A stretch of DNA of 49,647 bases from Candidatus Cottocaccamicrobium excrementipullorum (lineage in GTDB: Bacteria; Bacillota; Clostridia; Lachnospirales; Lachnospiraceae), in the NCBI GenBank assembly GCA_018713255.1, contig DVFL01000031.1, positions 1-49,647 of the forward strand, read 5' to 3'. Positions 16,259-31,623 of this stretch are shown here, one piece after another. Numbering within the stretch: position 1 is the first letter of the stretch; the number at the start of each line of letters is the position of its first letter. A program made the position numbers and the translations under genes. The notes beneath the pieces are model-generated. The model had not been told where the DNA came from. It made no database searches and was given only the letters and a program-made list of their open reading frames with translations.

Positions 16259-18026
16259 CCCGTTCTACCTCCTCCCTGGTAAGCTGAGACAGACAGATTT
16301 CCCGGTACAGAGCGCATCCTTTAAGAAGCTCCTTATGGGTTCCTTTTCCGACAATCTCTCCGTCATCCAAAACCAGAATCTGGTCTGCATTCTTCACAGC
16401 AGAAGCCCGCTGGGAAACCAGAAAGACCGTGGCATCCCCCGTTCCTTCTTTAATCGCCTTTCTCAGCTTTGCATCAGTAGCAAAATCCAGTGCGGAGGCG
16501 CTGTCGTCCAGAATCAGAATGTCCGGCTTTCTCACCAATGCTCTGGCAATCGTCAGTCTCTGCCTCTGACCGCCTGACAGGTTCCTTCCTCCCTGCTCAA
16601 TCTCAAGCTCCAGCCCCTGGCCCTTTCCGTCTACAAATTCTTTGGCCTGGGCGATCTCCAAAGCCTGGTAAATCTCTTCATCCTGTGCATCTGCTTTTCC
16701 CCAGCGCATATTTTCCCTCAGCGTACCTTTAAACAGCACTGCTTTCTGGGGTACAAGGCCAATGCTTTCCCGAAGCTGATGAAGAGGAAACTCTCGAACA
16801 TCCTGTCCATTTAACAGCACCTGCCCCGAAGACACATCATAAAACCTTCCGATAAGATTGATTAATGTGGATTTTCCCGATCCAGTTCCGCCGATAATGC
16901 CGATGGTTTTCCCCTTCTCAGCCTTAAAGGAAAGACCAGAAAGGGACGGCTCCTTAGCTCCGGCATAGACAAAGGACACATCCTTAAATTCCACAGACAT
17001 TCCCCTCTGTCCTCTCTTTTCCTCTTCTCCTGCTTTTGCCGCCGGCTCCTTGCCTTCCAAAGAAGAGGTCTTGTCAATGATTCCCGGTTCCATGGCAAAC
17101 ACAGAATCAATTCGGTTCATACAGGCCACTGATTTTGAAATAATGATAATCAAATTCGCCAGCTTGATTAATTCTACCAGAATCTGAGACATGTAGTTTA
17201 CCAGGGCTACAACCTTTCCCTGGGTAATCACCCCTGCATCTACCTGAAGGGCGCCCACCCAGATCACTGCCACAGTCGCCAGATTAATCATAATGTACGT
17301 TACCGGATTTAAGAGAGCCGAAATTTTGCCCACAAACACCTGGAATTTAACCAGAATGCTGTTCTCCTCCTCAAATCTTGCCGTTTCGCTTTTCTGCCGG
17401 TTAAAAGCCCGAATCACCCGGACGCCAAGAAGATTTTCCCGAGTAGTCAACATTACCCGGTCCAGCTGCTTCTGCACCTTTTTATACAACGGCATACTGA
17501 TCAGCAAAATGCCGAACACCACCACTGACAGCAGGGGAATCACCACGGCAAATACCAACGCTGCCTGAACATTCACGGTGAACGCCATAATCATAGCGCC
17601 GAATACCACAAAAGGCGACCGCAAAAACAGGCGCAGTACCATATTGATGCCGGTCTGCACCTGATTTAAGTCGCTGGTCATTCGGGTAATCAAGGTGGAA
17701 GACCCCACCGTATCAATTTCCGAGTAGGACAGACGGAAAATGTGGGCTAACAGATCGTTGCGCAGGCTGGCTGACGCTTCCACCGCCGCCTTAGCCGCAA
17801 AATACTGCGCCGTGAGGGAACAGGTCAGACCGATAATGCCTAACAAAATCAGCAGACCTCCCATTCTCAGGATATACCCAATATCCCGGTTCTGAATTCC
17901 TACGTCAATCATGCTGGCTACCACCAAAGGGACAAACAGCTCAAAGCTGGCTTCCAGCATTTTAAACAACGGGCCTAAAATGCTTTCCTTCTTGTAGTCT
18001 GCCAGATACCGAAGCAGTCTCTTCAT
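16248..18026 (-). CDS. ABC exporter half-transporter, subunit with degenerate catalytic site
   Basis: A 592-residue partner of the following gene. Membrane domain about residues 15-310; nucleotide-binding domain with Walker A GGTGSGKST near 379, canonical signature LSGGQRQ near 485, and Walker B LILDDSASALD, where aspartate replaces the catalytic glutamate. Its LSGGQ would complete the active ATP site of the partner, while its own Walker B pairs with the partner's altered LSQGQ. This is the arrangement of asymmetric heterodimers such as BmrCD and TM287/288. It has its own promoter 40-65 bases upstream. Confidence 0.93.
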   Translation of the reverse strand: MKRLLRYLADYKKESILGPLFKMLEASFELFVPLVVASMIDVGIQNRDIGYILRMGGLLILLGIIGLTCSLTAQYFAAKAAVEASASLRNDLLAHIFRLSYSEIDTVGSSTLITRMTSDLNQVQTGINMVLRLFLRSPFVVFGAMIMAFTVNVQAALVFAVVIPLLSVVVFGILLISMPLYKKVQKQLDRVMLTTRENLLGVRVIRAFNRQKSETARFEEENSILVKFQVFVGKISALLNPVTYIMINLATVAVIWVGALQVDAGVITQGKVVALVNYMSQILVELIKLANLIIIISKSVACMNRIDSVFAMEPGIIDKTSSLEGKEPAAKAGEEEKRGQRGMSVEFKDVSFVYAGAKEPSLSGLSFKAEKGKTIGIIGGTGSGKSTLINLIGRFYDVSSGQVLLNGQDVREFPLHQLRESIGLVPQKAVLFKGTLRENMRWGKADAQDEEIYQALEIAQAKEFVDGKGQGLELEIEQGGRNLSGGQRQRLTIARALVRKPDILILDDSASALDFATDAKLRKAIKEGTGDATVFLVSQRASAVKNADQILVLDDGEIVGKGTHKELLKGCALYREICLSQLTREEVERDAR

Positions 18027-18061
18027 TTCTTTTTCCTCTCAATTTCATTTTTTCAGAAATC

Positions 18062-18091
18062 ATTATAGCATCGGTCCTGACCGTTGGACAA
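18062..18091 (-). promoter_or_regulatory. Promoter of the ABC exporter pair
   Basis: TTGTCC (18086-18091) and TATAAT (18062-18067) on the minus strand, 18-base spacer. Confidence 0.6.
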
Positions 18092-18135
18092 GAAGAATTT
18101 ATATTTATTGCAGGATCTCTCTGCTCCTTCAGCCC

Positions 18136-18387
18136 TTATTCATCATGGTTCAGCCACCAGTATAAGCCGCCAATCAGTCCGGGGCCTAAGGCAAATCCGC
18201 CTCCCAGATTGCACATCATCAGCACCAGCTCCTCCCCCGGACGCTGGAATAAACTGCCTGCCAGGGCGCCGATTCCGCAGCCGATCACCAGCCAGACAAC
18301 AATATTCATATACAAGGCTCTCCGTACCGGATCTCCTGGAATCCACCCCAGCTCCTTTTTCGAAAAATGAAGAAAAAGCCCCATCAT
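18136..18387 (-). CDS. Small membrane protein of unknown function
   Basis: I do not recognise the family. The protein has an amphipathic/basic N-terminus (FSKKELGWIPGDPVRRALYMN) and two probable membrane helices (VVWLVIGCGIGALAG and a C-terminal GGGFALGPGLIGGLYWWL), ending in a polar tail. The frame is open upstream to an ATG at 18447 (103 residues), but no ribosome binding site is visible there. GGAGG lies 11 bases before the ATG at 18385-18387, giving about 83 residues, so that start is preferred. It sits alone between a divergent plus-strand gene and the exporter operon. It could be a minor exporter accessory, but nothing in the sequence shows that. Confidence 0.55.
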   Translation of the reverse strand: MMGLFLHFSKKELGWIPGDPVRRALYMNIVVWLVIGCGIGALAGSLFQRPGEELVLMMCNLGGGFALGPGLIGGLYWWLNHDE

Positions 18388-18561
18388 AATTTTCCCCGCC
18401 TCCTGACTCTCCTCGTTCAGCTGAAACAATAAATACACGCTTCCCATTTATGATAAAGATTAACAGATATTCCCTGGAAGCGATACCCTGCAAAGGAAAA
18501 TTTTGCGTAAGGTTTCTGTAAAACCTGCTGAACTGTTCAAGCAGATGATGCCTTTTGTCAG

Positions 18562-18590
18562 TTGCCTGAAAATAGAAAGAATGTTATACT
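18562..18590 (+). promoter_or_regulatory. Promoter of the DUF362/YihY pair
   Basis: TTGCCT (18562-18567) and TATACT (18585-18590), 17-base spacer, about 40 bases before the plus-strand gene. Confidence 0.65.
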
Positions 18591-18631
18591 AAATCATACC
18601 CATCATATCCAACTGAAAGGAGTTATGCACA

Positions 18632-19726
18632 ATGGAACGCAATGATATTATTATCATACATGGCACCAACTATAAAGAAATGGCCATCCAGGTACTGGAA
18701 AAAGCCGATGTGGCCTCCCGTATCGGCAGCCGGGATAAATCTGTAGCGTTAAAACCGAATCTGGTAGTGGCAGCTCATCCCTCTGGAGGCGGCACCACCC
18801 ACAGCGAGCTGCTGGCCGGCGTAATTGAATACCTGCAGGATCACGGCTTTCATCGTATCTCTATTATGGAAGGCTCCTGGGTGGGGGACAATACCCAATC
18901 TGCGTTTTCTGCTGCCGGATACCGGGAAATCTCCCGTAAATATAATGTCCCCTTAATCGATCTTCAGCGGGATACCTACCACGAATACGAGGCGAAGGGC
19001 ATGAAAATTAATGTCTGCGACAAAGCCATGGCGGTAGATTATATGATCAATATGCCCGTTTTGAAAGGTCATTGTCAGACCATTGTTACCTGCGCCTTAA
19101 AAAATAACAAGGGCATTATCCCCAATGTGGAAAAACGGAAATTTCACACCATGGGCCTTCATAAGCCTATCGCCCATTTAAACGTGATCGCGCCGAACAG
19201 CTTTATTCTGGTAGATAATATCTGCGGCGATCTGGACTTTGAAGAAGGGGGAAATCCAGTTACGATGAACCGGGTTTTAGGCTTCCTGGATCCGGTGCTC
19301 TGTGACAGCTACGTCTGCGACTGCATGGGCTACTCAGTAGACGATATTCCCTACATCCGTATGGCAGAAAAATTAGGAGTGGGAAGTACGGATACTGCCC
19401 ACGCGAATTTCATATACTTAAATGAGGACCGTTCCGGCAACGCGAAATTCAAGATGTCGCGGCGGGTTCAGAATCTGGCCCGCTATGCCCAGCCTAAAGA
19501 CGCCTGCAGCGCCTGCTATGGCTCTTTGATTTACGCTCTGGACCGGTTAAACGACTCCGGTTTCCTGAATAAAGGTCTTCCTCCAGTCTGCATCGGCCAA
19601 GGCTATAAAGGCCAGACTGGTGAAATCGGCGTAGGCCAATGTACCTGCAATTTCCAGAAAACCTTGAAAGGCTGTCCGCCCAAAGCCATTGACATGGTTC
19701 ATTTTCTGGAGGAAAACTGGAAATAA
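18632..19726 (+). CDS. DUF362 domain-containing protein
   Basis: A 364-residue cytoplasmic protein of the DUF362 family. Family features visible are the N-terminal VALKPNLVV, the GGGTTHSELL segment, VLKGHCQTIVTCALKNNKG near residue 145, and NRVLGFLDPVLCDSY. The C-terminal third carries several cysteines (CSACYGS, CIGQGYKG, GQCTCNF), which could bind a metal or an iron-sulfur cluster. DUF362 proteins are often fused to ferredoxin domains, which this one lacks. The biochemical role is not established. AAAGGAG precedes the ATG, and the next gene follows after 21 bases. Confidence 0.85.
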   Translation: MERNDIIIIHGTNYKEMAIQVLEKADVASRIGSRDKSVALKPNLVVAAHPSGGGTTHSELLAGVIEYLQDHGFHRISIMEGSWVGDNTQSAFSAAGYREISRKYNVPLIDLQRDTYHEYEAKGMKINVCDKAMAVDYMINMPVLKGHCQTIVTCALKNNKGIIPNVEKRKFHTMGLHKPIAHLNVIAPNSFILVDNICGDLDFEEGGNPVTMNRVLGFLDPVLCDSYVCDCMGYSVDDIPYIRMAEKLGVGSTDTAHANFIYLNEDRSGNAKFKMSRRVQNLARYAQPKDACSACYGSLIYALDRLNDSGFLNKGLPPVCIGQGYKGQTGEIGVGQCTCNFQKTLKGCPPKAIDMVHFLEENWK

Positions 19727-19747
19727 TCCTATGGAGGCCTCCTGCTG

Positions 19748-20584
19748 ATGATTAACCTTCTCCTGCACATTATTCGGATTAAAGACAAATTTGTGGATGA
19801 CGAGATTACGGTGTATGCTGCCCAGGCGTCTTTTTTCATCGTCCTGGCAGCATTCCCCTTTATCATGGTTCTTCTTACCCTGATTCAGCTGATTCCCACC
19901 GTTTCCAAAGCAGATCTTCTGTCTCTTCTGGTATCCTTAATGCCGGAAATGCTGAAATCCACAGTAATTACCGTGGTAGATGATCTGTTTACCAAATCGC
20001 CTGGAACCCTCCTGTCCATTACTGCCCTGGCAGCTCTCTGGTCTGCCTCCAAAGGAATGTTAAGCATCTGCCGAGGTCTGAACCGAATATTTAAATGCAA
20101 AGGCAGAAGAGGATATTTTTCTTCACGGATTATCTGTACAGGATATACTCTCCTGTTTATGGTCGCCTGCATCCTCTCTCTTGTTCTGCTGGTGTTTGGC
20201 ACAACCATCCAGAATCTGATTCTCCGGATATTTCCGTTTCTGGAAAGCATTACCCGGCATATTATCAGTTTCCGTGCTCTGCTGTCTTTGGCCCTTCTCA
20301 CGTTTATTTTTGCCGGACTTTATACCATCATTCCGGATCAAAAACAGCAGGTGCGCTATCAGCTCCCCGGAGCCCTGTTTTCCACCTTGTGCTGGATCGG
20401 GTTTTCTTATGCTTTCTCCGTATATTTTAACAATTTCAGTAATTACTCCTACATGTACGGAAGCCTTACCGCCATTGTCCTGCTGATGCTGTGGCTGTAT
20501 TTCTGCATCTGCATTCTTTTTCTCGGCGCGGAATTGAACTATTTTTTTGAACGGTACAAAACTACCGGGTATTTTTATCATTAA
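19748..20584 (+). CDS. YihY/BrkB family membrane protein
   Basis: A 278-residue inner-membrane protein with about six hydrophobic helices and the typical family start (DDEITVYAAQASFFIVLAAFPF). The conserved internal segment LSICRGLNRIF and the C-terminal YMYGSLTAIVLLMLWLYFC are both present. The family was once called ribonuclease BN, but that activity belongs to another protein; the true function is unknown, possibly transport or envelope-related. It is co-transcribed with the DUF362 gene 21 bases upstream. Confidence 0.9.
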   Translation: MINLLLHIIRIKDKFVDDEITVYAAQASFFIVLAAFPFIMVLLTLIQLIPTVSKADLLSLLVSLMPEMLKSTVITVVDDLFTKSPGTLLSITALAALWSASKGMLSICRGLNRIFKCKGRRGYFSSRIICTGYTLLFMVACILSLVLLVFGTTIQNLILRIFPFLESITRHIISFRALLSLALLTFIFAGLYTIIPDQKQQVRYQLPGALFSTLCWIGFSYAFSVYFNNFSNYSYMYGSLTAIVLLMLWLYFCICILFLGAELNYFFERYKTTGYFYH

Positions 20585-20595
20585 AAAAGAAGAGC

Positions 20596-20622
20596 GAAAA
20601 ACGATTTTTAGTTTTTCCTATG
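20596..20622 (+). terminator. Weak terminator after the YihY gene
   Basis: GAAAAAC (20596-20602) pairs with GTTTTTC (20611-20617); a short AT-rich stem with a T-run in its arm, 12 bases past the stop codon. Confidence 0.4.
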
Positions 20623-20639
20623 ATTTATGAATACGCAAA

Positions 20640-20681
20640 AACAAGGGTACAATGAACCCATATAGAGATTGTACCCTTGTT
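20640..20681 (-). terminator. Terminator of the sialic acid operon
   Basis: A perfect 14-base stem: AACAAGGGTACAAT (20640-20653) against ATTGTACCCTTGTT (20668-20681), 14-base loop, followed by a T-run on the minus strand. It marks the downstream limit of the nan operon, and its symmetry may also stop the converging plus-strand transcript. Confidence 0.85.
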
Positions 20682-20721
20682 AAAATTGTCTATTTTATGA
20701 TTTGCATTTTATTATTGAAGC

Positions 20722-22152
20722 TTAATCTTCAAATTTGTACTCCGCAATATGAAAATCACCTCTCAATGCCCACAATTTTGCTTCTCGAAAACGAAATTTC
20801 AAAACGACCCTTTTTCCTTTTAATTCCTCTAAATTTCCATTCTCAAACCGAATAGCATACCATCCATCTCCTAACGGTTTCAATATGCTTTCATGAAAAG
20901 AAAATTTATCAATTCCTTGTTTATTCCATGATGGTGCAACTTCGACTTCCATATATAAGCATTGTGCTTCTGTTAGTGAATCAGCTAAAATCTCTAGACA
21001 ATTTCCAGTAAACTGAATGCGACTTGTAATAACCACACTCTTCATTTCCTTGTCCCTGGGAATGAGCGCTGCAAATTTGTCTGCTTCCCAACTGGCTCTT
21101 GCTAAGGAAGTCTCACGAAAATTTGTATGGCACCCATTTCCTCCCATATAATAAACCCAAAGCCTGCCATCCGGATCTACAATCGGTGGTCCAGCAAAAA
21201 TACAACCACAGTCAAATTCTCCGTCAGGATATCTTCCACTTCCCCGATCCAAAATATTTTCTTCAAATACAGCAAAATCAAATTTTTCCGGATTTACTGC
21301 ATAAGTCAACTGTAGATCGACAAGATCAAAGTTTTTTTCCAAGCGATCTCCCTCATGAAAGATAGATGCTAATCCTAAATATATATTTTTCCAATAAAAT
21401 ACCGGCATAGAATAAATCTGATTTTGAAACCCTGCTCCTCGAGCCACTTCCCGAGGTTTTTCCCAATGAATAAAATCCTTACTCCTGCTAAGTGCTGCAA
21501 CCCTTATTCCGTCCCTCCATATTCTGGATATTACCATATAGCACTCCTCTTTTTCATTCCAAAATGGAAGGTTATGACTGTCTGCCGGAGGATTATACTC
21601 CTGCCACGGAATAGGGTTAATCCAATGTATTCCATCCTGAGAAAAGGATACCGCCATATAATTTGTCCCATCTGGTTTATCAATCTTTGTCACCATTTTA
21701 TATCGCCGTTCCTGATTCGAATCCCTTTCATCCAGCATCACACCAGTCCCATGGGCATAAACAAAAATAAGATTGTTGCTTGTACTTCCTTTCCATTTGC
21801 AAATTCCTAAGTTTGGTTTTTCCCAGTGAATTCCATCTTTGCTCTCTGCATAAGCAACACCGGTAATGCGATCATCTCGTGGGCAGTAATTCCTTTGTAC
21901 TCTTTCTTCCCGTGACACTCCAAAGCAATCTTTATCTTCAATAATTAAAGTATAATAACATCGGTAAACCTTTTGTTTTTCATCATAAATCACATTCGGA
22001 TATCCGTTATCAATACGAACCTCCCAAGGGCGATCTTCCGTAAATAATGGATTATTCTCTTTGTCCTTTACCAACTTTTCTATCTTGACCTCTGCATTTT
22101 CTGTCCCCTGTGGATTCAAAAGAGCACGCATGAAGAAAAAATATTGATTCAT
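20722..22152 (-). CDS. Predicted cytoplasmic beta-propeller glycosidase-like protein (nan operon, last gene)
   Basis: A 476-residue protein with no signal peptide, resembling the five-bladed propeller superfamily that includes GH32, GH43, GH68 and GH130. The blade motif recurs as ESKDGIHW, SQDGIHW and SKDFIHW, each followed by a proline-containing turn. A C-terminal beta-sandwich is likely from about residue 370 (RIQFTGNCLEILAD...). Acidic residues sit at blade starts (VMLDERDSNQ, PPIVDPDGRLWVYY), but I cannot assign catalytic residues. It overlaps the YhcH gene by four bases (ATGA), so translation is coupled. The location implies a step on imported sialic acid-containing material, but the substrate is unknown. 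It is distantly similar to the 533-residue protein of the same operon. Confidence 0.75.
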   Translation of the reverse strand: MNQYFFFMRALLNPQGTENAEVKIEKLVKDKENNPLFTEDRPWEVRIDNGYPNVIYDEKQKVYRCYYTLIIEDKDCFGVSREERVQRNYCPRDDRITGVAYAESKDGIHWEKPNLGICKWKGSTSNNLIFVYAHGTGVMLDERDSNQERRYKMVTKIDKPDGTNYMAVSFSQDGIHWINPIPWQEYNPPADSHNLPFWNEKEECYMVISRIWRDGIRVAALSRSKDFIHWEKPREVARGAGFQNQIYSMPVFYWKNIYLGLASIFHEGDRLEKNFDLVDLQLTYAVNPEKFDFAVFEENILDRGSGRYPDGEFDCGCIFAGPPIVDPDGRLWVYYMGGNGCHTNFRETSLARASWEADKFAALIPRDKEMKSVVITSRIQFTGNCLEILADSLTEAQCLYMEVEVAPSWNKQGIDKFSFHESILKPLGDGWYAIRFENGNLEELKGKRVVLKFRFREAKLWALRGDFHIAEYKFED

Positions 22153-22613
22153 TTATCCGTCCCTTCCATTTTTACTTTTATAACAACTTTCTCAACTTGA
22201 GTTCTTGTCTGATCCATTATCTTTACCATATGGGCTTCTCCAGGAAACAAAATTAAAATTTTATCATGTCTTAAAGGAAAGTACACTGCTACATTCCCAT
22301 AGCAATCTACCTGATCCTCTTTTAGCTCCTTCCTTGTTACCGTAAGATCCTCAACAGAAGTAACCCCAATTTTTTCATGACCTTTCAACAATAAATGAAT
22401 ATCTGCATAAATAAGATGAGATTCAAATATCGTTTCCGTTTCAGGAAGAGTCATATAGCAAAAACGATTTGCAAAAACAAGTTCTTCATCAATCGCATTG
22501 CTTCCATTTTTTAGTTCATCTAGTCTATGTGTTAATATGTAATCGATTGCAGTATCCAAATTTTTGTGAATTCCTAAATATTGCTTTACATGATTTATAT
22601 CTGTGTAAATCAT
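22149..22613 (-). CDS. YhcH/YjgK/YiaL family protein, probable N-acetylneuraminate anomerase (NanQ-like)
   Basis: A cupin-like DUF386 protein. In E. coli, YhcH (NanQ) speeds the alpha-beta interconversion of cytoplasmic sialic acid so the lyase can act. Family motifs are visible: ESHLIYADIHLLLKGHEKIG with conserved acid and histidine residues, and FPGEAHMVKI near the end, a typical metal-site histidine strand. The frame is open to 22661, but the family begins at MIYTDINHVKQYL; an AGGAG lies before the ATG at 22611-22613, giving 154 residues, the usual length. It is located between the two propeller genes. Confidence 0.88.
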   Translation of the reverse strand: MIYTDINHVKQYLGIHKNLDTAIDYILTHRLDELKNGSNAIDEELVFANRFCYMTLPETETIFESHLIYADIHLLLKGHEKIGVTSVEDLTVTRKELKEDQVDCYGNVAVYFPLRHDKILILFPGEAHMVKIMDQTRTQVEKVVIKVKMEGTDK

Positions 22614-22701
22614 TCTCTCTCCTGTCCTCCCCCTTTGAAATCCATATAAAACTCGCGCCATGATACCAGCATTTTCATCCCAGCATCAATGGCGCTTATT
22701 C

Positions 22702-24303
22702 TTATCTTGGAATATCCTGGCCAGTTCCGGACAATCCTGGACCGCCCCCAGTTAGATAGCCTCGACTCTCGCCAGTAGTCCATGGAGAAATCCAAAAAGC
22801 ATACAATTCCCCTTTCTTCAGGTACATTTTTATTTTTATCTTCCGTTCTTTCAATTTCTCCACTGAATCATTCTGTTTCCAAACAATTCTTCCACGAGTA
22901 TGATCTCCTGATAAAGGAATACAATTTTCTCTCTCATACCCTGGTATTACATATCCTGCTTCATCAAGTATTTCTACTTCTAACTTTTCCTCGACTTTGG
23001 CATTCACAAAGAAATAGCTTCCGTCAAAAGTCAGTGTCTCCGTTAAAAGAGTCCCCTCCGTTTCTGCATTCAGAGACACAAATCCATCTCTCCGCAACAC
23101 CGCTAAGCCACAAGATGTTCCTGAATCCCACCAAATTCCATTTCTTTTTCGTCCGCTGGAATAAAAATACAACTTATCCTGTACCACCAATGGCATTCCT
23201 CCCACTGCTTGCATATTCCCATAATTCCAATTCTCATAGTGAGAAGTATCCACTTCCATAAAAGATTCATATGTTGGGCGGAAAAAATGAAATCCATCCC
23301 GGCTATATCCTAACTGAATTTCATTTCGCTTTGGCATCATTAACGATCTGCATACATCATTTTCTGGTCCCTGCCACTGACTATAAATTCCCAACATTAA
23401 ACTTTCATATGCAACCACATCAAAACTGTAAATACCTGGTTCTGTATCCGGATAATCTGTATGACGTTTTTCTTTTTTGTCAGGATTAAACCAGAAATGA
23501 ATATGTTTATCCCGCGTTCCTTCTCGTATGCGATGTGCCAAACTTACAGCCTCCTCCGGGTCATCATGTTCCAAATACGTTCTAGAGCGCCATGACACAG
23601 AGTTGTGATGTCGCATACTCAGCACCCATTTTTTTAGGAACGGATTATAGAATGCAGTAGAGCGATCAGATACCGCCCCCGACTGAGCAATCCCTTGAGA
23701 CCAGTGAATTCCATCGCCAGAATATTTGAGTACATATTGCCATTGAATGTAGTCATTTTTATATTCTACATTGAACAATTTATAACGTTTGGCTGGATCC
23801 TTTTCCTCGCGATCAATCCAAACCGTTGAAGAATCCCGGTTAGTTACTTCCACGATATTTGTACCAGGAACCACATCCAGCTTTGGTTTAATCCAATGAA
23901 TTCCATCTTGTGACTCTGCATAGCAAGTGCACAGACTGTGTTTTTCCTGATTAATTTTCCCAGCCCCTGCCAAATACCACATTTTAAATTTTTGATCTAA
24001 ATCATCGTACCAAACCCCATCGCTAAAAGGAGCTGCATAGGGATATCCTTCAACAGTATATTCCCAATCTTCATCCACCTCTAAAACAGGGTTCTTCTCA
24101 TAATAAATAGGATTATGACAAGTTCGTTTTAAATCAGTCTCTGCGATTAAAAAATCATCTACAAAAAGTTGCCTTCCACGATTAATTGGAATAACTTCCG
24201 GCTTATGTTTTAAATATGGCACCTTCATTCCGCATAAATTTTCTTCATATCGCGGGGGCCACTCATCTGGCAATGCAATTCCATTTTCCAAAACTTTTCT
24301 CAC
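22702..24303 (-). CDS. Predicted cytoplasmic beta-propeller glycosidase-like protein (nan operon)
   Basis: A 533-residue protein without a signal peptide. It begins with a strand leading to GRQLFVDDFLI, a motif common in propeller glycosidase-like proteins of this kind. Blade motifs ESQDGIHW, SGDGIHW and SRDGFHF recur near residues 130, 190 and 340. A C-terminal beta-sandwich follows (DGSYFFVNAKVEEKLEVEI...GELYAFWIS) and ends in a glycine-rich tail. The fold class is inferred; the substrate is not. The start is GTG with a weak ribosome binding site, 13 bases after the permease gene, so coupling is likely. A cytoplasmic location implies it acts on a transported saccharide rather than on mucin outside the cell. 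Confidence 0.75.
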   Translation of the reverse strand: MRKVLENGIALPDEWPPRYEENLCGMKVPYLKHKPEVIPINRGRQLFVDDFLIAETDLKRTCHNPIYYEKNPVLEVDEDWEYTVEGYPYAAPFSDGVWYDDLDQKFKMWYLAGAGKINQEKHSLCTCYAESQDGIHWIKPKLDVVPGTNIVEVTNRDSSTVWIDREEKDPAKRYKLFNVEYKNDYIQWQYVLKYSGDGIHWSQGIAQSGAVSDRSTAFYNPFLKKWVLSMRHHNSVSWRSRTYLEHDDPEEAVSLAHRIREGTRDKHIHFWFNPDKKEKRHTDYPDTEPGIYSFDVVAYESLMLGIYSQWQGPENDVCRSLMMPKRNEIQLGYSRDGFHFFRPTYESFMEVDTSHYENWNYGNMQAVGGMPLVVQDKLYFYSSGRKRNGIWWDSGTSCGLAVLRRDGFVSLNAETEGTLLTETLTFDGSYFFVNAKVEEKLEVEILDEAGYVIPGYERENCIPLSGDHTRGRIVWKQNDSVEKLKERKIKIKMYLKKGELYAFWISPWTTGESRGYLTGGGPGLSGTGQDIPR

Positions 24304-24316
24304 AGTTTTTTTCAGG

Positions 24317-25189
24317 TCAGCCCTTGACAGAGCCTACCATTACTCCTTTCACAAAATATTTCTGAACAAATGGATAAACCATTATAATCGGTAATGCAGT
24401 GATAATAATAGCCGCTGCTTTTACACTTTCTGTAGGAAGTGTAGAAGCTATTGAATCAATGGCACCAGAACTGGCTGCAATCTGCATTGAATTTAACATT
24501 TCTTTTAAAAGCAACTGCATGGGCCATTTAGCTTTATCTGACATAAATATAGATGCATCAAACCATGCATTCCAATGCTTTACTGCATAGAATAATCCAA
24601 CTGTAGCAATAGCTGATTTAGACAAAGGTAAAACAACTTTGGTAAACAGCTGAATTTCATCTGCTCCATCTAATCTGGCAGCTTCAAGAAGGCCATCTGG
24701 AATTGCCTGGAAAAAATTACGTAAAATCAGAGTGTTCCATGCAACCATCAAAATTGGAAGCACCAGCGCTAAGTAACTATTTTTTAATCCAAGAGAAGTT
24801 ACAAGCAGATATTTAGGAATCAAACCTCCATTAAAAATCATTGTAATGAATATCGCAAAAGTAAGAATTCCCCTAAAAGGCAAATCCTTTTTCGATAAAC
24901 CATATGCATACATGCTTGTTACGATCAAATTTGCTGCTGTTCCAAATAACGTAACGCCAATACTAACCAAACAGGATCTCAAAAGTGCACTGTTCTTAAT
25001 TAAAAGATATTCATATGCATCCCAATTAATAGATTTGGGAATCAGCGTAAATCCATATTTTAAGATGTCCTCATTGCTCATTAATGACTGGTTAATTACA
25101 AAAACAATTGGAACAATAATTACTGCGCACAATAAAACCAGCATAACCACATTAATAACATCAAAAAGATGAACTTTCTTTTTTCCCAT
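24317..25189 (-). CDS. Carbohydrate ABC transporter permease, LplC type
   Basis: A 290-residue inner-membrane permease of the CUT1 family (COG0395-like). It has six hydrophobic helices and the EAA loop EAARLDGADEIQLFTKVVLP that docks the ATPase. It starts one base after the partner permease gene ends. The operon encodes no ATP-binding subunit, so a shared MsmX-type ATPase encoded elsewhere is presumably used. The probable cargo is a sialic acid or a sialylated saccharide, inferred from the neighbouring nanE and nanA. Confidence 0.92.
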   Translation of the reverse strand: MGKKKVHLFDVINVVMLVLLCAVIIVPIVFVINQSLMSNEDILKYGFTLIPKSINWDAYEYLLIKNSALLRSCLVSIGVTLFGTAANLIVTSMYAYGLSKKDLPFRGILTFAIFITMIFNGGLIPKYLLVTSLGLKNSYLALVLPILMVAWNTLILRNFFQAIPDGLLEAARLDGADEIQLFTKVVLPLSKSAIATVGLFYAVKHWNAWFDASIFMSDKAKWPMQLLLKEMLNSMQIAASSGAIDSIASTLPTESVKAAAIIITALPIIMVYPFVQKYFVKGVMVGSVKG

Positions 25190-25190
25190 A

Positions 25191-26120
25191 TTACCAAACT
25201 CCTAACTCTTTATCAAATATTTTCACAAAACGATTAGAAGCAAGCACCAACAGTAGTGCCACAATGTTCTTAAATAGTCCTACTGCTGCAGAATAAGAAT
25301 AATTGACATTCAAAATTCCTTCTCTATATACATAGGTATCAATAATATCTCCAACACTATATACTGCAGGGGAATACAACAATAAAATCAGCTCATATCC
25401 TTGATCAAGTACTTTTCCCAGATCTAAAATTAACATAATTACAATAATTGGGGCAATTGACGGAATACTGATATGAAGCATTTTTTGAATTCTAGATGCT
25501 CCATCTAAATCTGCACTTTCATAAAGTTCCTGAGATACTCCGGAAAGCGCTGCAAGGTACACAATGCTTCCCCATCCTATGGTAGCCCATACATGGGTTC
25601 CTATAATAATCTGCCGGAAAAACTTTTCATTACCAATAAATTCTATGGAATTAATTCCAATACTATTTAGCAAAGCATTTATTGGGCCGTTTACAGGTGA
25701 AAACACAAACTGTACAATTCCAGCAATAATAACATAGGATAGAAAATGCGGTAAATATGAAATTGTTTGAGTAACCTTTTTAAATCTCTGATTTTTCAGT
25801 TCATTAATCATTAATGCGAGAATTAATGAAGCTACAGATGCTAAAATTAATTTTGAAAAATTGATAATTAAAGTATTTACTAATGTTCGTGAAAAATAGT
25901 ATGATCCAAAAAATTCTTTAAAATGCTTAAATCCTACCCAGGTAGGATCAAATAATATCTTTTCTAATCCACCAAAAGGCTGATAATCCTGAAATGCGAT
26001 GACTACACCATACATTGGGATAAACTGAAAGATAATTAAATACAATAATCCAGGAAGCATCATTAAATAGATTAGCCAATATTTTTTTATTCTTTTTCGA
26101 ATGCTTGCTTGATTTTTCAC
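25191..26120 (-). CDS. Sugar ABC transporter permease, LplB type
   Basis: A 309-residue CUT1 permease with an N-terminal cytoplasmic basic stretch (RKRIKKYWLIYLMMLPG), six helices, and the EAA-type loop ESADLDGASRIQKMLHISIP. LplB-type permeases pair with long lipoprotein binding proteins, as here. Bracketed tightly by the binding-protein gene (25 bases upstream) and the second permease (one base downstream). Confidence 0.92.
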   Translation of the reverse strand: MKNQASIRKRIKKYWLIYLMMLPGLLYLIIFQFIPMYGVVIAFQDYQPFGGLEKILFDPTWVGFKHFKEFFGSYYFSRTLVNTLIINFSKLILASVASLILALMINELKNQRFKKVTQTISYLPHFLSYVIIAGIVQFVFSPVNGPINALLNSIGINSIEFIGNEKFFRQIIIGTHVWATIGWGSIVYLAALSGVSQELYESADLDGASRIQKMLHISIPSIAPIIVIMLILDLGKVLDQGYELILLLYSPAVYSVGDIIDTYVYREGILNVNYSYSAAVGLFKNIVALLLVLASNRFVKIFDKELGVW

Positions 26121-26145
26121 TCCACCACCCTCATTTCATTCTCAA

Positions 26146-27705
26146 TTACTTATTTTGACTTTGATTTTGGAGAAATTGTGTTGTCTTATCTTGCATTAAC
26201 TGATCTCCGCCAATTTCTCTCCATTGTTCCATTACCGCAGGCCATTCATCGACAGACATAGTCCCTGCAAAAATTCTTCCTTTCGCCTCAGAAAGCAACG
26301 TTGCCAAATCATTCATTTTGTTCTGTGCCTTATACTTGCTCACATCATAAGGAGTAATAGCATCCTGCGGCGTAACTGTGTCCATCGCTTTTAGTTCTTC
26401 ATTCATCTCATTCATTAAATTATAAGTATAAGTGTTTAAAGGCCAAAGATCAGTTCTCCACTCTCCAAAGCCTTCATGAAGGTTGTAAAGAATATAATAC
26501 TGGGCTGTGGTCCAATCCGTGGGATTGTCAGAAATAATCTTATATTTCCCAGTTTCTGGATCTACTGTGTAATTTTCTCCTTCTATACCATAAGTTGTTA
26601 TAGTTTGCCCCTCTGGTGAACACTGATAGTTTAAGTATTCCAGCGCTTTTTCTGGATGCTCGCATGTAGATGTAATCAAAGTTACACCCTTGGCAAACTG
26701 GGAACTTGTATATTTATTTGCCGCATGGTCACTTCCTTTGGGAGTTACAAATTCATATCGTATATCTGGATACGTCTGAGCTAAAATTTCGATTCCACTA
26801 TATAAGAAACGAGTCCACGTACCAGCTGTACTTCCCACTTTATTTTGGGCTACATAACTCAATTTATCTTGCTTAGACGTAGTAGCAATCTGATCAAAAA
26901 GATATCCATCATCAATCCACCTTCTCATTGTTTCCAAAAACTCAATATATCCTTCATCCATTTCATATGGTTTTAGAATCTGTTCATCTTCATCAAAGTA
27001 CCAATATGCTCCTGTCTGGGTAAAAAAAGGCAGGAAAGCCTGTTCCAATTCGTCAACTGTATTGGCTATCAACGGAATTGTATCATTCTGGCCATTTCCA
27101 TCTAGATCTTCTTCTTTAAACTGTTTTAAAATGGCTTCATATTCCTCTAAGGTCGTAGGCATAGTTTCCCCAAGCTGATCTACCCAATCATTTCTCACTG
27201 CTACGAGAGCTGGTATCGTCTGTGCTCCGACAAATGGAATTCCTAAATACTTGTCTCCCATTTTAACTGCTTCCCATGACTCTTTCGGGAAGGAATCTCG
27301 CAAATAAGGGTATTGATCCAATTCTTCTTGAGTAATCATCCGTACAGCACCACTGTTGTTTAAATTCTGTGCATCAGTCATGTCGATGCACGGAATAATA
27401 TCCAGCTGCTCTTTTCCTGCTAACATAAGATTTGCCTGTGTGGCGAGCTGATCCGAAGGAATCATTACCAATTGGAGATCAACTCCCGTTTCATCTATAA
27501 TAATTTGATGGATTTTATCTCGCTGTTCACTGGGTTTATCTAAATTATTATTAATATTCAATGAGACAATTTTAACTACATCTTCCTCACTCGAATTTTC
27601 CTTTGCCTGCTGAGTCTCTCCTGATTCAGCACTACTCTTGCAAGCACATAATCCAACGCATATTGCTGCTACTATGGATATTCCTAATAAATACTTTTTC
27701 TTCAT
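26146..27705 (-). CDS. Extracellular solute-binding lipoprotein, LplA type
   Basis: A 519-residue substrate receptor of the ABC importer, anchored outside the membrane. It has a lipoprotein signal peptide: KKK, a hydrophobic stretch, and a lipobox LCAC with the modified cysteine near residue 22, followed by a Ser/Glu-rich linker. The length and sequence style fit the large CUT1/LplA binding proteins, not the smaller SatA or TRAP SiaP receptors used for sialic acid in some other bacteria. Specificity is inferred only from the operon. Confidence 0.9.
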   Translation of the reverse strand: MKKKYLLGISIVAAICVGLCACKSSAESGETQQAKENSSEEDVVKIVSLNINNNLDKPSEQRDKIHQIIIDETGVDLQLVMIPSDQLATQANLMLAGKEQLDIIPCIDMTDAQNLNNSGAVRMITQEELDQYPYLRDSFPKESWEAVKMGDKYLGIPFVGAQTIPALVAVRNDWVDQLGETMPTTLEEYEAILKQFKEEDLDGNGQNDTIPLIANTVDELEQAFLPFFTQTGAYWYFDEDEQILKPYEMDEGYIEFLETMRRWIDDGYLFDQIATTSKQDKLSYVAQNKVGSTAGTWTRFLYSGIEILAQTYPDIRYEFVTPKGSDHAANKYTSSQFAKGVTLITSTCEHPEKALEYLNYQCSPEGQTITTYGIEGENYTVDPETGKYKIISDNPTDWTTAQYYILYNLHEGFGEWRTDLWPLNTYTYNLMNEMNEELKAMDTVTPQDAITPYDVSKYKAQNKMNDLATLLSEAKGRIFAGTMSVDEWPAVMEQWREIGGDQLMQDKTTQFLQNQSQNK

Positions 27706-27730
27706 TATTTTCCTCCTCGATTACTTTTTC

Positions 27731-28660
27731 TCATTTTCCAACAACCTGATACTTTTTCACTGCCTTATCAATCATCGCTGCACAGGTCCTTACTTGAGCC
27801 ATATCTTCAGGAATTAAATTTGCCAAAGGTTTTCGCACTCCACCGATATCTAATCCTTCTCGAAGCCGCAAAATTTCCTTCATTACCGCATACAAATTTC
27901 CATGACAAGAACACATTGCATCAATAATTGCATTTGCTGTATATTGTATTTCTCTTGCCTCCCTCACCTTTCCTTTCTGTACCAGTTCCATAATACGAAT
28001 ATAAAGTTCTGGCATTACTCCATAAGTACCACCAATTCCACCATCTGCTCCCATAGCTAAACCAGACACTAATTGCTCGTCAGGGCCATTAAAAACTACA
28101 AAATCTCGTCCTCCCTCCATTTTAAACATTTGAATATCCTGTACTGGCATTGAGCTATTTTTTACTGCTGCAACTTTTGGATTTTTCAGCATTTCTTTAA
28201 AAAGTGTCATAGTAAGTCCCACTCCTGCCAACTGTGGAATATTGTAAATCACAAAATCCGTATTGGGTGCCGCATGAGAAATATCATTCCAATATTGGGC
28301 AATCGCATATTCTGGAAGATGGAAATAAATCGGAGGAATCGCTGCAATTGCATCAACTCCTAAACTCTCTGCATGTGCTGCTAGTTCCATGCTATCCGCC
28401 GAATTATTACAAGCTACATGAGCAATAACTGTAAGCTTGCCTTCTGCCGCTTTCATCACATGTTCTAGAACAATTTCTCTTTCCTTCACATTTTGATAAA
28501 TACATTCTCCAGAAGATCCTCCTACATAAACTCCTTTTACACCTTTTTTTAACAAATGCCGAGTCATATTTTCTACCGCTTGTGGATTAATATTACCTTT
28601 TGCATCATAACATGCATAAAATGCTGGAATAATTCCCTGATATTTTAAAATATCTCTCAT
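27731..28660 (-). CDS. nanA: N-acetylneuraminate lyase / DHDPS family aldolase
   Basis: A class I aldolase of 309 residues. Visible residues are the GSSGE phosphate-loop-like motif near residue 48, the tyrosine in FVIYNIPQLAG near 138, and the Schiff-base lysine in VAAVKNSS near 166. The YNIP-x-x-xG pattern and the neighbours nanE, a ROK kinase and YhcH favour the sialate lyase (Neu5Ac to ManNAc plus pyruvate) over dihydrodipicolinate synthase. The gene is 71 bases after the ROK kinase gene and 25 bases before the binding-protein gene. Side-chain specificity (Neu5Ac against other 2-keto acids) cannot be settled by eye. Confidence 0.85.
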   Translation of the reverse strand: MRDILKYQGIIPAFYACYDAKGNINPQAVENMTRHLLKKGVKGVYVGGSSGECIYQNVKEREIVLEHVMKAAEGKLTVIAHVACNNSADSMELAAHAESLGVDAIAAIPPIYFHLPEYAIAQYWNDISHAAPNTDFVIYNIPQLAGVGLTMTLFKEMLKNPKVAAVKNSSMPVQDIQMFKMEGGRDFVVFNGPDEQLVSGLAMGADGGIGGTYGVMPELYIRIMELVQKGKVREAREIQYTANAIIDAMCSCHGNLYAVMKEILRLREGLDIGGVRKPLANLIPEDMAQVRTCAAMIDKAVKKYQVVGK

Positions 28661-28731
28661 ATATATTTCCCTTTCTTCTTACTTTTTCTATTATTCTGAT
28701 AACTGTTATTTTGCATCCAAATCTTACTTAT

Positions 28732-29610
28732 TTATTTCAACAATTTCTCTGCTTCGTGCGCCACCCCTAAGAACCCTGCCTTATTTCCTAATTGCGCTCT
28801 AACAACCTCTGTCCTTCTCATTCCTGGTGACACAAATGATAATAACTTTTGACGTACTTCTGTAGAAATAAATTTCTGTTCCATAATACCTCCTCCTAAA
28901 ATAACTTTAGGAGGATTGAATACATGGACCAATGTAACCAATCCATATACAATTTCATCAATCCACTGTTCTACTACGCAGCGGACCTCTTTCCGATTAA
29001 TGGAAGCAAAAATAGCTCGTCCATCTGCAAGAGAATCATCAATACGTCTTGCTTTTCGTATCAAAGCTGTAACCGAAGCATAATTTTCATAGCAACCAGA
29101 AAAATCTAGCTCTGCTTTTAAGTCTTCTGGATGCACCAAAATTCCTCCAAAACTTCCTGCCGACCATCGACTTCCTCTATATATTTGCCTATTAATGACA
29201 ATAGCTCCACCTATTCCCGTTCCATATGTAAGACATAAAAAATCCGAAACATCCCTTCCTGCACCAAACTGCGCTTCACCTAATGCAGCTGCATTAACAT
29301 CATTTTCCACAAAAACAGGCACTTTAAATCTTTCTTCTAAAATTGATTTTACTTTCATTCCTGTATAATTTGGTATATTCGCATTTGCATAATAAATTGA
29401 GCCATTGTTTATGTCTACTTGTCCCGCCGTACTGATTCCGAGAGCATCAAATTTTCCGCAATGTTGTAAAATCGTCTGTACTCTCCGAATCAGCTGTACT
29501 CCTCCTTCTCTCGCCAGTGATGGTCGCTCATTCCACTCTACTATTTTCTCTCCATCCCAAATACCAAACTTGATTGATGTTCCACCAATATCAACCGCCG
29601 CAATTCTCAT
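28732..29610 (-). CDS. ROK family sugar kinase, probable N-acetylmannosamine kinase
   Basis: A 292-residue ASKHA-fold kinase. The ATP phosphate loop DIGGTSIKFGIW is at the N-terminus and GTGIGGAIV near residue 133. A typical ROK zinc motif has C-x-C-G-x-x-G-C; here only the last cysteine survives (DFSGCYENYAS), as in some non-zinc NanK enzymes. No N-terminal winged helix is present, so it is a kinase and not a ROK repressor. Its start overlaps the nanE stop by four bases (ATGA). The expected reaction is ManNAc to ManNAc-6-phosphate, which feeds the NanE epimerase. GlcNAc kinase activity is an alternative. Confidence 0.85.
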   Translation of the reverse strand: MRIAAVDIGGTSIKFGIWDGEKIVEWNERPSLAREGGVQLIRRVQTILQHCGKFDALGISTAGQVDINNGSIYYANANIPNYTGMKVKSILEERFKVPVFVENDVNAAALGEAQFGAGRDVSDFLCLTYGTGIGGAIVINRQIYRGSRWSAGSFGGILVHPEDLKAELDFSGCYENYASVTALIRKARRIDDSLADGRAIFASINRKEVRCVVEQWIDEIVYGLVTLVHVFNPPKVILGGGIMEQKFISTEVRQKLLSFVSPGMRRTEVVRAQLGNKAGFLGVAHEAEKLLK

Positions 29611-30320
29611 AATCTATTTCCTCGGCTTTCCTGAATCGCCTTTACAAATCGCTTTGCAATTTCCATTGGCCTTGTAATTGCACCACCGACTACAATTGCC
29701 CATACACCTGTTTCTAAAGCTTCTACCGCCTGTTCTGGTGTATGTATTTTTCCTTCTCCAATTACAGGTATCTTTAAATCCGTAGATAAACGTTTCATCA
29801 AATCATAATCCGGCATATCCTGTTTTGGCGTATAATCTGTATATCCACTCATAGTTGTTCCAACAATATCTACTCCACACTTAAAAGCATTTACTCCTTC
29901 CTCATAGTTAGAAATATCTGCCATTAACATCTGTTTCGGATACCGTTCACGTATTTTTTGAATAAAATCATTGACTGTGGTTCCGTCTCCCCGCCGGCGC
30001 AAAGTACAATCTAAAGCTATTACATCCGCTCCTGCTTGCACTAACTCATCAACTTCTTTCATCGTAGGAGTGATATAGCTTTCATAGCCTGGATACTGAA
30101 TCTTTACCAATCCAATTACTGGAAGTCCAGTTTCCTTCTTAATTGCGACAACATCTCGAATTCCACTAGTCCGGATCGCTGGACTTCCAGCCATCTTTGC
30201 TGCCCTAGCCATCAAATACATAATGGATTTTTCTTTCACATACAACGCTTCACCAGGAATTGCCTGACAAGAAACAATCATTTGTCCGCGTATCTTTTTT
30301 AAAAACTCTTCCTTTTCCAT
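29607..30320 (-). CDS. nanE: N-acetylmannosamine-6-phosphate 2-epimerase
   Basis: Converts ManNAc-6-P to GlcNAc-6-P, the last dedicated step of sialate catabolism. The 237-residue TIM-barrel protein shows NanE hallmarks: SCQAIPGEALY near the N-terminus, IGLVKIQYP with the catalytic lysine, ALDCTLRRRGDG, MADISNYEEGVNAFKCG, and VIGEGKIHTPEQA. It is the first main gene of the operon. Its ribosome binding site is poor (AGAAGAAA), but a short leader ORF with a strong site overlaps its start by 22 bases, so translation may be coupled. Confidence 0.93.
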   Translation of the reverse strand: MEKEEFLKKIRGQMIVSCQAIPGEALYVKEKSIMYLMARAAKMAGSPAIRTSGIRDVVAIKKETGLPVIGLVKIQYPGYESYITPTMKEVDELVQAGADVIALDCTLRRRGDGTTVNDFIQKIRERYPKQMLMADISNYEEGVNAFKCGVDIVGTTMSGYTDYTPKQDMPDYDLMKRLSTDLKIPVIGEGKIHTPEQAVEALETGVWAIVVGGAITRPMEIAKRFVKAIQESRGNRL

Positions 30321-30358
30321 TTTCTTCTTATGTAGTGTTTAAGAAGCTTAAACACCAT
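30299..30358 (-). CDS. Possible leader peptide overlapping nanE
   Basis: A 19-codon ORF (MVFKLLKHYIRRKWKRKSF) preceded by the purine-rich site TAAAGGAAAGGAACC. It is much better provided than nanE itself, and it stops inside the seventh codon of nanE in another frame. Its early codons form a perfect nine-base hairpin (GTGTTTAAG / CTTAAACAC). It may couple translation or be a chance ORF; no homologue is known to me. Confidence 0.35.
   Translation of the reverse strand: MVFKLLKHYIRRKWKRKSF
30335..30355. repeat. Perfect inverted repeat in the nan leader
   Basis: GTGTTTAAG (30335-30343) and CTTAAACAC (30347-30355) with a three-base loop, 15 bases upstream of the nanE start codon. As RNA it would form a hairpin next to the nanE ribosome binding region; as DNA it could be an operator. 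No T-run follows, so it is not a terminator. Confidence 0.6.
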
Positions 30359-30503
30359 GGTTCCTTTCCTTTAATTTAGCATCGCAATTTAACAGATCCA
30401 GATACTATCCGATTTTTGAGCTTCTTCAGTAACATAACCACTGTTAATCTCCAGATTCACTCAACCTTTCACAGATCGTCTCTTTTTGTAAACTAGTATC
30501 TAT

Positions 30504-30532
30504 ACTATACTCGTTTTTAAAATAATTTTCAA
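30504..30532 (-). promoter_or_regulatory. Promoter of the nan operon
   Basis: TTGAAA (30527-30532) and TATAGT (30504-30509) on the minus strand with a 17-base spacer, giving a leader of about 175 bases before nanE. The -35 box is embedded in one of two identical 15-base repeats. Confidence 0.75.
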
Positions 30533-30560
30533 TTTGCATTCTGCATTAAAATAATTTTCA
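30517..30560 (-). promoter_or_regulatory. Two identical operator-like repeats at the nan promoter
   Basis: TGAAAATTATTTTAA (minus strand) occurs exactly twice, at 30517-30531 and 30546-30560, 29 bases apart (close to three helix turns). Each is a near-palindrome (TGAAAAT-T-ATTTTaA). One copy covers the -35 box, the other lies upstream, an arrangement suited to a repressor that binds cooperatively. RpiR-family NanR is the usual regulator of such operons in Firmicutes, but no regulator gene is in the cassette, so assignment is inference. Confidence 0.65.
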
Positions 30561-30639
30561 TTTATGTGCATTATACACAAATTATATAACTATTTTCATG
30601 ATATTAAATATTAATTTTGCACGTTTTTTTCTAAGAAAC

Positions 30640-30858
30640 ATGATGTCACATCCTACTTTCTGTTATCTTCCATATTTGTATGACAACCTCATCCACGCTT
30701 CTCAGCCTATCTAGATAACTTTTACAGGCCGGTGGTTCGCCTCCGGCTTCCTTTAGCCCCCCGTCTCACGATATCGCTCCTGCCATTGACTGCACCCTTC
30801 CCACTGCCGGACGGATCAGGGATTTTCCCCTATTGGGACGTGTGCCTGCCGGGCACAC
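30640..30858 (-). mobile_element. Truncated 5' part of a group II intron, probably class C
   Basis: On the minus strand the segment starts GTGTGCCCGGCAGGCACAC, a GTGYG-type intron 5' end, and continues with segments I recall from domain I of bacterial group II introns (GCAGTCAATGGCAGGAGCGA, GGGGGCTAAAGGAAGCCGGA, AAAGTAGG). It begins directly after an intrinsic terminator and its T-run, the preferred insertion site of class C introns. No reverse transcriptase and no domain V is present, and the segment fades out near 30640, so this is a fragment. Recognition is from memory of the family, not from an alignment. Confidence 0.5.
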
Positions 30859-30861
30859 CAC

Positions 30862-30899: not shown

Positions 30900-30933
30900 A
30901 ATTCTAATTCAGTTAAGTTTTGTCACTGTATTG

Positions 30934-31575: not shown

Positions 31576-31623
31576 ACGCTTCCCTCTCTTTCTTTAACAG
31601 AAACACTGCTTTTCTCTGCCTTT

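Follow-up and report, generated by a model that had tools for sequence, protein, structure and literature searches.

In the usual picture of cross-feeding in the gut, a secreted sialidase frees N-acetylneuraminic acid (Neu5Ac), which is then taken up. The glycoside hydrolase (GH) families named for sialidases are GH33, GH34, GH156, GH177 and GH181 (PMC13096917; this and the other PMC papers are cited for excerpts of their text). A GH33-type sialidase uses an Arg triad, a Tyr/Glu nucleophile pair and an Asp acid (PMC12018670), GH181 is a six-bladed propeller (PMC10067855, PMC12018670) and GH177 is NAD-dependent (PMC11701701). The Ruminococcus gnavus route combines a GH33 trans-sialidase, a sugar ABC importer and NanOx (PMC4988440, PMC7535918). 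In another setting, the protein of structure 5GUB, Smon0123, serves the import of unsaturated glycosaminoglycan disaccharides, and their cleavage in the cytoplasm has been proposed (PMC5430744).

Here we analyze a 49,647-nucleotide stretch of DNA from Candidatus Cottocaccamicrobium excrementipullorum (Lachnospiraceae), hereafter the window, in which a sialic acid (nan) operon encodes two proteins of 533 and 476 residues, P533 and P476. The window has in common with the R. gnavus nan cluster a sugar ABC importer, a YhcH-family gene, NanE, NanA and a kinase and, as we read it, the conversion of imported material inside the cell. The R. gnavus cluster, so far as the excerpts describe it, has a GH33 trans-sialidase and a Gfo/Idh oxidoreductase, whereas the window has neither and carries P533 and P476 instead (PMC7535918, PMC4988440). 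The system of Smon0123 and cytoplasmic UGL has a related binding protein, imports an acidic disaccharide and cuts it inside, but differs in its unsaturated uronate chemistry, its GH88 enzyme and its glycosaminoglycan cluster (PMC5430744).

We think it somewhat probable (roughly 0.55) that P533 and P476 are glycosidase-like enzymes, both acting on sialate compounds that have been imported; for the window operon, "import first, open inside" is our best reading. An earlier note on this DNA had proposed that a sialylated or modified saccharide is brought in and opened by the two proteins in the cytoplasm. This idea gains from nan linkage in several lineages, from the lack of any window match to the GH33, BNR_2 and NanOx-like queries used, from a sister operon (L084 below) and from the kinship of the binding protein; the substrate and the activity that it named are still conjectural.

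The operon and its two propeller-like proteins

The features of the operon are as follows.

29607..30320, minus strand: nanE, ManNAc-6-phosphate 2-epimerase, first gene (PF04131, 240 bits; NCBIfam NF002231, 298.5 bits, passing the cut-off of 189)
28732..29610, minus strand: ROK family sugar kinase, probable NanK (PF00480, 164 bits)
27731..28660, minus strand: nanA, N-acetylneuraminate lyase of the 6rab/6rb7 type (phmmer, PDB chains)
26146..27705, minus strand: SBP, solute-binding lipoprotein of a CUT1-type importer (PF01547, 26 bits, equal to the cut-off)
25191..26120, minus strand: importer permease A, permA (PF00528, 57.8 bits; 47% identical to the permease of the Bacillus nan operon L003)
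24317..25189, minus strand: importer permease B, permB (PF00528, 52.8 bits)
22702..24303, minus strand: P533, propeller-like protein with C-terminal beta-sandwich, 533 residues, GTG start (Foldseek; relatives)
22149..22661, minus strand: YhcH/YjgK/YiaL family protein, probable sialate anomerase (PF04074, 106 bits; NF040884, 71 bits, missing the cut-off of 160)
20722..22152, minus strand: P476, propeller-like, distant homologue of P533, 476 residues, last gene (Foldseek; sub-threshold GH32N and GH43 matches)
30517..30563, no strand: 18-base direct repeat, 94% identical, 29 bases from start to start, upstream of nanE (repeat search)

The nine genes form one minus-strand operon running from 30320 down to 20722, with successive gaps of -4, 71, 25, 25, 1, 13, 40 and -4 bases. 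Both reading frames proposed earlier for P533 and P476 were confirmed. The tight translational coupling claimed for them suits P476, which overlaps yhcH by 4 bases, better than P533, which begins 13 bases after permB. As to the nan company, NanE is firm; NanA, YhcH and the kinase are family-level matches below their equivalog cut-offs, so that their exact activities are presumptive. NanA is of the DHDPS type and scores 235 bits against its NCBIfam equivalog (cut-off 281). Its closest PDB chains by phmmer, 6rab (474 bits) and 6rb7, are titled "putative N-acetylneuraminate lyase" (E about 1e-141), 8u8w following at 190 bits and chains of the 3lcg/2wo5 type at about 168; 6rab is presumably the R. 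gnavus enzyme. An altered NanA specificity, suspected from a Gly at the position of an E. coli NanA Ser, was dropped, as 6rab and 6rb7 have the same GGTYG stretch. The kinase falls short of every NCBIfam cut-off: two NanK models give 90 (cut-off 283) and 72 bits, and the best, a glucokinase subfamily, 168 (cut-off 260).

Judged by eye, neither P533 nor P476 has an N-terminus resembling a signal peptide, in agreement with the earlier note. The S-x-D-G-x-H-W motifs recur as described: there are two exact copies in P533 (at 131 and 195), two in P476 (at 104 and 171) and one looser copy in each. No shuffled sequence out of 20,000 contained two exact copies, while one copy turned up in 4 (P533) and 2 (P476) shuffles; the motif pair in each protein thus lies beyond chance. 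Matches between P533-type and P476-type proteins have 23-28% identity and span 153-499 residues; P533 and the orthologue of P476 in locus L030, for example, match at E 1e-20. On these alignments P533 and P476 are distant homologues of each other.

Pfam and NCBIfam yielded no family for P533, and none above cut-off for P476. The best glycosidase matches of P476 were sub-threshold: GH32N at E 0.0088 (PF00251, 16.1 bits, cut-off 22.1) and GH43 at E 0.023 (PF04616, 14.5 bits, cut-off 32.2). P533 matched neither profile. BNR and sialidase profiles were absent for both proteins among matches listed at E up to 10, a range in which HMMER filters drop most matches above 0.1. We rejected GH33 membership on this lack of a BNR match. 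PDB searches by sequence, with phmmer and with profiles, gave no significant relative; GH130 chains came up at insignificant values (E 0.2 with the P533 profile, 0.58 with that of P476). No GH181 chain, with its propeller and sandwich layout, appeared in these searches of a set whose GH181 content was unconfirmed. GH177/NanOx was also rejected: P533 and P476 show no Gfo/Idh match and have a propeller-like fold, and GH177 is set apart by its NAD-dependent mechanism, as described in the excerpts of PMC11701701, rather than by sequence. The PMC literature, seen in excerpts and exclusive of CAZy, gave no paper describing P533, P476 or a five-bladed sialidase, which does not prove absence.

As had been suggested, structures were predicted and searched for related folds. 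AlphaFold2 models reached a predicted local distance difference test score (pLDDT) of 65 and a predicted TM-score (pTM) of 0.63 for P533 (8 alignment rows), and 76.6 and 0.78, respectively, for P476 (11 rows). Residues 411-500 of P533 are modeled as strands with block-mean confidence of 87-97; these and the strands and confidence at the P476 C-terminus fit the C-terminal beta-sandwich noted before. Foldseek matches in the PDB were considered as the best 50 of 818 for P533 and the best 50 of 855 for P476. They were mostly GH32, GH130 and GH43 enzymes and not sialidases, at best E 2.4e-8 (GH32) and 1.6e-7 (GH130) for P533, and from E 2.7e-10 (GH130) for P476. Human sialidase 2 was a single partial match, at rank 48 of the P533 list. 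GH32, GH43 and GH130 (fructosidases, arabinosidases, mannoside phosphorylases) are five-bladed propellers. With moderate confidence, then, the models place P533 and P476 in the fold class of GH32/43/130-like propellers.

Conserved residues were read from an alignment of 18 proteins that included a GH32-like protein of locus L033, with the register checked by eye. The catalytic motifs of GH32 are Asp (in NDPNG), RDP and EC. P533 and P476 have a GH32-like layout, a propeller followed by a beta-sandwich, and P533, by eye, has Asp95 and Asp213 at the blade-1 and blade-3 Asp positions. In neither family is the blade-4 acid/base Glu of GH32 and GH43 conserved, so by catalytic motif P533 and P476 are not members of GH32 or GH43. 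They also differ from GH32, GH43 and GH130 in their sub-threshold or insignificant sequence matches and in their sialate context. The six-bladed GH33 and GH181 enzymes resemble P533 and P476 in the propeller, in the sialate setting and in a motif, S-x-D-x-G-x-x-W, that recalls S-x-D-G-x-H-W; they differ in that P533 and P476 have no BNR Pfam match and find GH32, GH43 and GH130 folds among their best 50. GH181 further shares the added beta-sandwich (PMC10067855, PMC12018670), and the GH33 and GH181 enzymes of Akkermansia are described in these excerpts as acting outside the cell, unlike what we propose for P533 and P476. No characterized family was clearly matched.

Invariant residues are D95, R156, D157, D213, R231 and Y292 in 8/8 P533 rows (7 loci, L007 excluded) and R46, H134, D191, H193, R210, R217, Y247, H266, D314, H342 and R346 in 7/7 P476 rows. 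The loop between blades 3 and 4 (P533 residues about 250-282, WFxPDxKE) is 8 residues longer in all five nan-linked P533 rows than in the three others. The P533 piece of L007, kept out of the alignments because it lies in two frames, has the long form too. In a tree of the 18 rows, the P533 rows linked to nan genes group together (100/100), and the P476 rows make up a second, weakly supported group (82/87).

Neighborhoods of relatives and a sister operon

Loci of relatives were fetched and bear L-numbers; sampled genomes bear G-numbers. P533 is known from eight loci, the window and seven found by P533 search, and five of them are sialate loci (window, L003, L005, L004 and L007). P476 is known from seven, of which L003 and L005 joined the count through the P533 search. 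It shares a locus with nanA in six (window, L003, L005, L028, L029, L030) and adjoins nanA directly in L028, L029 and L030. Both proteins occur together in three loci (window, L003 and L005), every one a nan locus. Linkage to nan genes is therefore conserved for each protein and for the pair, and the earlier proposal is supported by sialate loci of several lineages; a strict form of it is at odds with the P533 relatives of L006, L008 and L009, which lie outside such loci.

The operon of L005 (Caccovicinus) is as in the window, with an RpiR gene in addition; the window operon carries no regulator gene. The direct repeat upstream of the window's nanE is a possible operator or regulator site, and Rfam gave zero matches within 18000-33000 of the window. 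L003 (Bacillus sp. FJAT-50079) has nearly the same gene set as the window in rearranged order: nanA, P533, permA, permB, SBP, P476, a PgpA gene, nanE and ROK, yhcH being absent. The PgpA (phosphatidylglycerophosphatase A) gene, at L003:16835-17353, appears unrelated to the operon around it.

Two sialate loci lie in Bacteroidota. In L004 (Capnocytophaga leadbetteri), two P533 copies, both with signal-peptide-like N-termini, stand between SusC, SusD on one side and AGE, NanM, MFS, NanA-like, SusC and SusD genes on the other (SusC and SusD by eye). AGE (equivalog, 727 bits) and NanM (PF24996, 177 bits) pass their cut-offs; the NanA-like protein (127 bits) and the MFS protein are below theirs. L007, from a metagenome-assembled genome of Bacteroidia, holds SusCD (by eye), a BNR_2 protein, P533, an FAD oxidoreductase, an SSF symporter, a GH33 protein (BNR_assoc_N) and a sulfatase; no NanA match was found in this stretch. 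Its P533 relative (L007:9526-11270) is split over two reading frames in the metagenome assembly, by error or decay.

P476 has a range of its own. L028-L030 have a Dpp-type importer and no P533 orthologue; in L028 and L029, P476 is accompanied by the Dpp importer, NanA and YhcH alone. The seventh locus, L036, is on a short contig of 9.7 kb, in which no nanA was seen but, by eye, an IclR-type regulator gene and Dpp importer genes. P533 thus goes with CUT1, SusCD or phosphotransferase system (PTS) importers and P476 alone with Dpp, a pairing that suggests a division of labor in which P533 would act on oligosaccharides and P476 on small derivatives. The P533 relatives of L008:7536-13985 and L009:7608-13943 stand with PTS EIIBC, a PfkB kinase, a LacI-type regulator (by eye), HUMPS-type and SIS genes (Pfam on L008 alone), which suggests a phosphorylated-glycoside branch of the family. 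Distant homologues without Pfam match, of 512 and 474 residues, lie in L032:9363-11938 beside a DHDPS-like gene and in L031:8306-10538 beside an apparent HpcH-type aldolase gene (by eye). The wider P533/P476 family may be tied to sugar-acid catabolism.

At E 0.001, P533 has matches in 6 and P476 in 9 of 299 sampled genomes of the family. For P533, only the match in its own genome is an orthologue; the others are partial, at 29-44% identity, some being P476 itself. P476 orthologues (48% identity or more) were kept from its own genome, G149, G289 and G065, and the matches in G030, G114, G133, G148 and G214 were not counted, being distant or, in the case of G133 (L033), GH32-like. Viral contigs contained no relatives of either protein, and plasmids only one partial match at 26% (an Isosphaeraceae record).

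A NanA of the window type (E 1e-50) is found in 45 of the 299 genomes, at 46 places. Forty-four of these loci were surveyed (G251:C129 and G015:C41 being left out; some regions stop at contig ends), with a longest-frame script for reading frames of at least 100 residues in 40 of them. Classes were assigned by single-sequence phmmer queries at thresholds that we set; a recheck at E 0.001 added more BNR and GH33 queries and took in the window, where symporter queries found nothing either. Among the 44 loci, P476 occurs in 4, P533 in 1 and a Gfo/Idh gene (NanOx-like by family and place only) in 3; 4 have a flavoprotein next to a Dpp importer, 13 an SSS symporter, 2 a GH33-type gene and 1 (L084) a BNR_2 gene. 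The 11 loci with P476, flavoprotein or Gfo/Idh include none of the 13 symporters (hypergeometric 0.011, post hoc). Gfo/Idh never accompanies P476, in numbers too small to establish exclusion among the three kinds. The flavoproteins (FAD_binding_2/Succ_DH_flav_C, 541-587 residues; Pfam on L083 and L099) are encoded at L083:7075-8838, L086:3244-4896, L099:160-1785 and L117:4-1624, near Dpp importer genes in nan loci without P476. They share GSSFYPGTWGLGLIGP or a near variant, and may be a further converting enzyme in sialate use. L106 encodes none of the three enzymes, yet its Dpp binding protein closely resembles the one in L028 (858 bits), so this importer class can serve a plain nan pathway.

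L084 (genome G194) provides what we take as the best functional clue. Its NanE, NanA and ROK proteins are 76%, 75% and 59% identical to those of the window, and its permeases 39-41%. It has neither P533 nor P476; two overlapping reading frames lie between the genes for permB and the binding protein. The second (278 residues) matches BNR_2 at 80.9 bits (cut-off 31.4). The first (147 residues) has, by eye, an Asp-box-like stretch and no signal peptide, and no Pfam match at 0.01. From its sequence, we read L084 as a replacement of function, a sialidase-type protein taking the place of P533 and P476.

Elsewhere in the genomes, BNR_2 (E 1e-5) is absent from those of L003, L005, G289 and G065, sialidase families other than BNR_2 not being searched. 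It occurs at 3 places in the window's own genome, 1 in G149, 1 in the genome of L004 and 23 in that of L007; 5 of 14 control genomes were positive. The two strong own-genome matches (L041:9121-10149 and L042:9591-10763) lack a signal peptide by eye and lie beside other CUT1 importers and NanA-related aldolases. They were rejected as the operon's sialidase, their 20-kb stretches having no NanE match. A cytoplasmic sialidase is known in NanH of C. perfringens. The BNR_2 pattern suggests that these bacteria may either live on sialate that others have released or cleave sialosides within the cell.

The nearest solved relatives of the window's SBP are 5gx8, 5gub and 5xs8, then AlgQ1 and AlgQ2. AlgQ binds alginate oligosaccharides. 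This kinship in sequence supports, without proving, the view that the importer takes in an acidic saccharide bigger than free Neu5Ac.

Possible activities of P533 and P476

The sequence of events that we propose begins with the CUT1-type importer, which would take a small sialylated or anhydro saccharide rather than free Neu5Ac. P533 would then open this saccharide at the sialic-acid ketoside. P476 would act on a smaller derivative, for example an anhydro or alkyl sialoside, and free its sialate, or would strip a modification; its occurrence with Dpp importers, and the close relative of such an importer in L106, where no extra enzyme is found, suggest a monosaccharide-sized substrate. The established pathway, for which the genes are present, would follow: YhcH equilibrates the anomer, NanA cleaves, and the ROK kinase and NanE lead to GlcNAc-6-phosphate. 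In Capnocytophaga, where SusCD would do the importing, P533 would work in the periplasm. The main support added to the idea of internal opening is the recurrence in both Bacillota and Bacteroidota, together with L084.

A bolder form of this interpretation is that P533 and P476 are two new glycoside-hydrolase families, the first five-bladed-propeller enzymes to cleave sialic-acid ketosides, serving uptake of the whole saccharide. The same job would be done in related operons by a BNR_2 protein without signal peptide, by a Gfo/Idh oxidoreductase and perhaps by a flavoprotein. We put this forward tentatively and incline to doubt it; we know of no five-bladed sialidase.

Several observations weigh against glycosidase-like action on imported sialates. 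The P533 model is weak, and the fold matches have TM-scores between 0.15 and 0.62, varying with the length chosen, and root-mean-square deviations of 6-22; low scores and large deviations support the fold class and not its detail. The blade-4 Glu is missing from both families and P476 lacks the blade-1 Asp (register partly by eye). Three of the eight P533 loci lie outside sialate use (L006, from Pirellulales, and the PTS operons L008 and L009). Two of the three paired loci were found by P533 search, and one of them, L005, is closely related to the window. The pair is rare: P533 is in 1/44 and P476 in 4/44 nanA loci of the family, and at E 1e-20 the P476 profile matches 2 of the 398 genomes sampled from the phylum. 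L084 is a single case, possibly a broken or misread gene whose first piece matches no Pfam family, and BNR_2 proteins need not be sialidases. Finally, the GH33 protein of L007 and the BNR_2 protein elsewhere in the Capnocytophaga genome would make sialidase activity of P533 redundant there.

Some of these points invite other explanations. P533 and P476, P476 above all, might not be glycosidases and might remove an O-acyl, N-acyl or lactone modification from sialic acid after its import. A GalNAc deacetylase, too, has the five-bladed fold; its chains are found at ranks 25 and 29 (6n1b, 6n1a) among the best 50 for P476 and at rank 47 (6n1b) among those for P533, and P476, for all that it lacks the GH32/43 acid Glu, keeps H134, D191, H193, H266, D314 and H342 in every row. 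However, GH130, GH32 and GH43 rank above the deacetylase in the P476 list, and L084 has a sialidase-type reading frame at the same place; we regard this explanation as unlikely. It is less likely still that the two proteins cut a neighboring sugar (a galactoside or hexosaminide, for example) of a co-imported sialylated oligosaccharide and leave the sialic-acid bond alone. The P533 relatives in PTS operons with PfkB, and the distant homologue beside the DHDPS-like gene of L032, do indicate that the wider P533 family is not sialate-specific. Yet no catabolic genes for a second sugar were found in the window operon with Pfam and NCBIfam, and P476 can stand with Dpp importer, NanA and YhcH alone.

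The compound 2,7-anhydro-Neu5Ac is an internal ketoside, and a hydrolytic, cofactor-free substitute for NanOx could open it. The 6rab type of the window's NanA would suit such a role for P533 and P476, as would the Gfo/Idh genes, which occur in 3 of the 44 nanA loci and never together with P476. That pattern of exclusion rests on few loci, though, and the permeases encoded in the Gfo/Idh loci show only weak similarity to the window's own (permA about 40 bits, permB about 75), so that we give this explanation a low probability. Glycosidase-like action of both proteins on imported sialate compounds is the interpretation that we retain.

If it is true, importer-linked internal opening would let some bacteria keep their sialic acid, none being shared in free form with competitors, and genome screens for GH33 alone would overlook sialate users. 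Cleavage of sialosides would be added to a fold whose enzymes are known to act on fructosides, arabinosides and mannosides. The outcome would be a new glycoside-hydrolase family, to our knowledge the first five-bladed sialidase, and an unrecorded route of sialate use.

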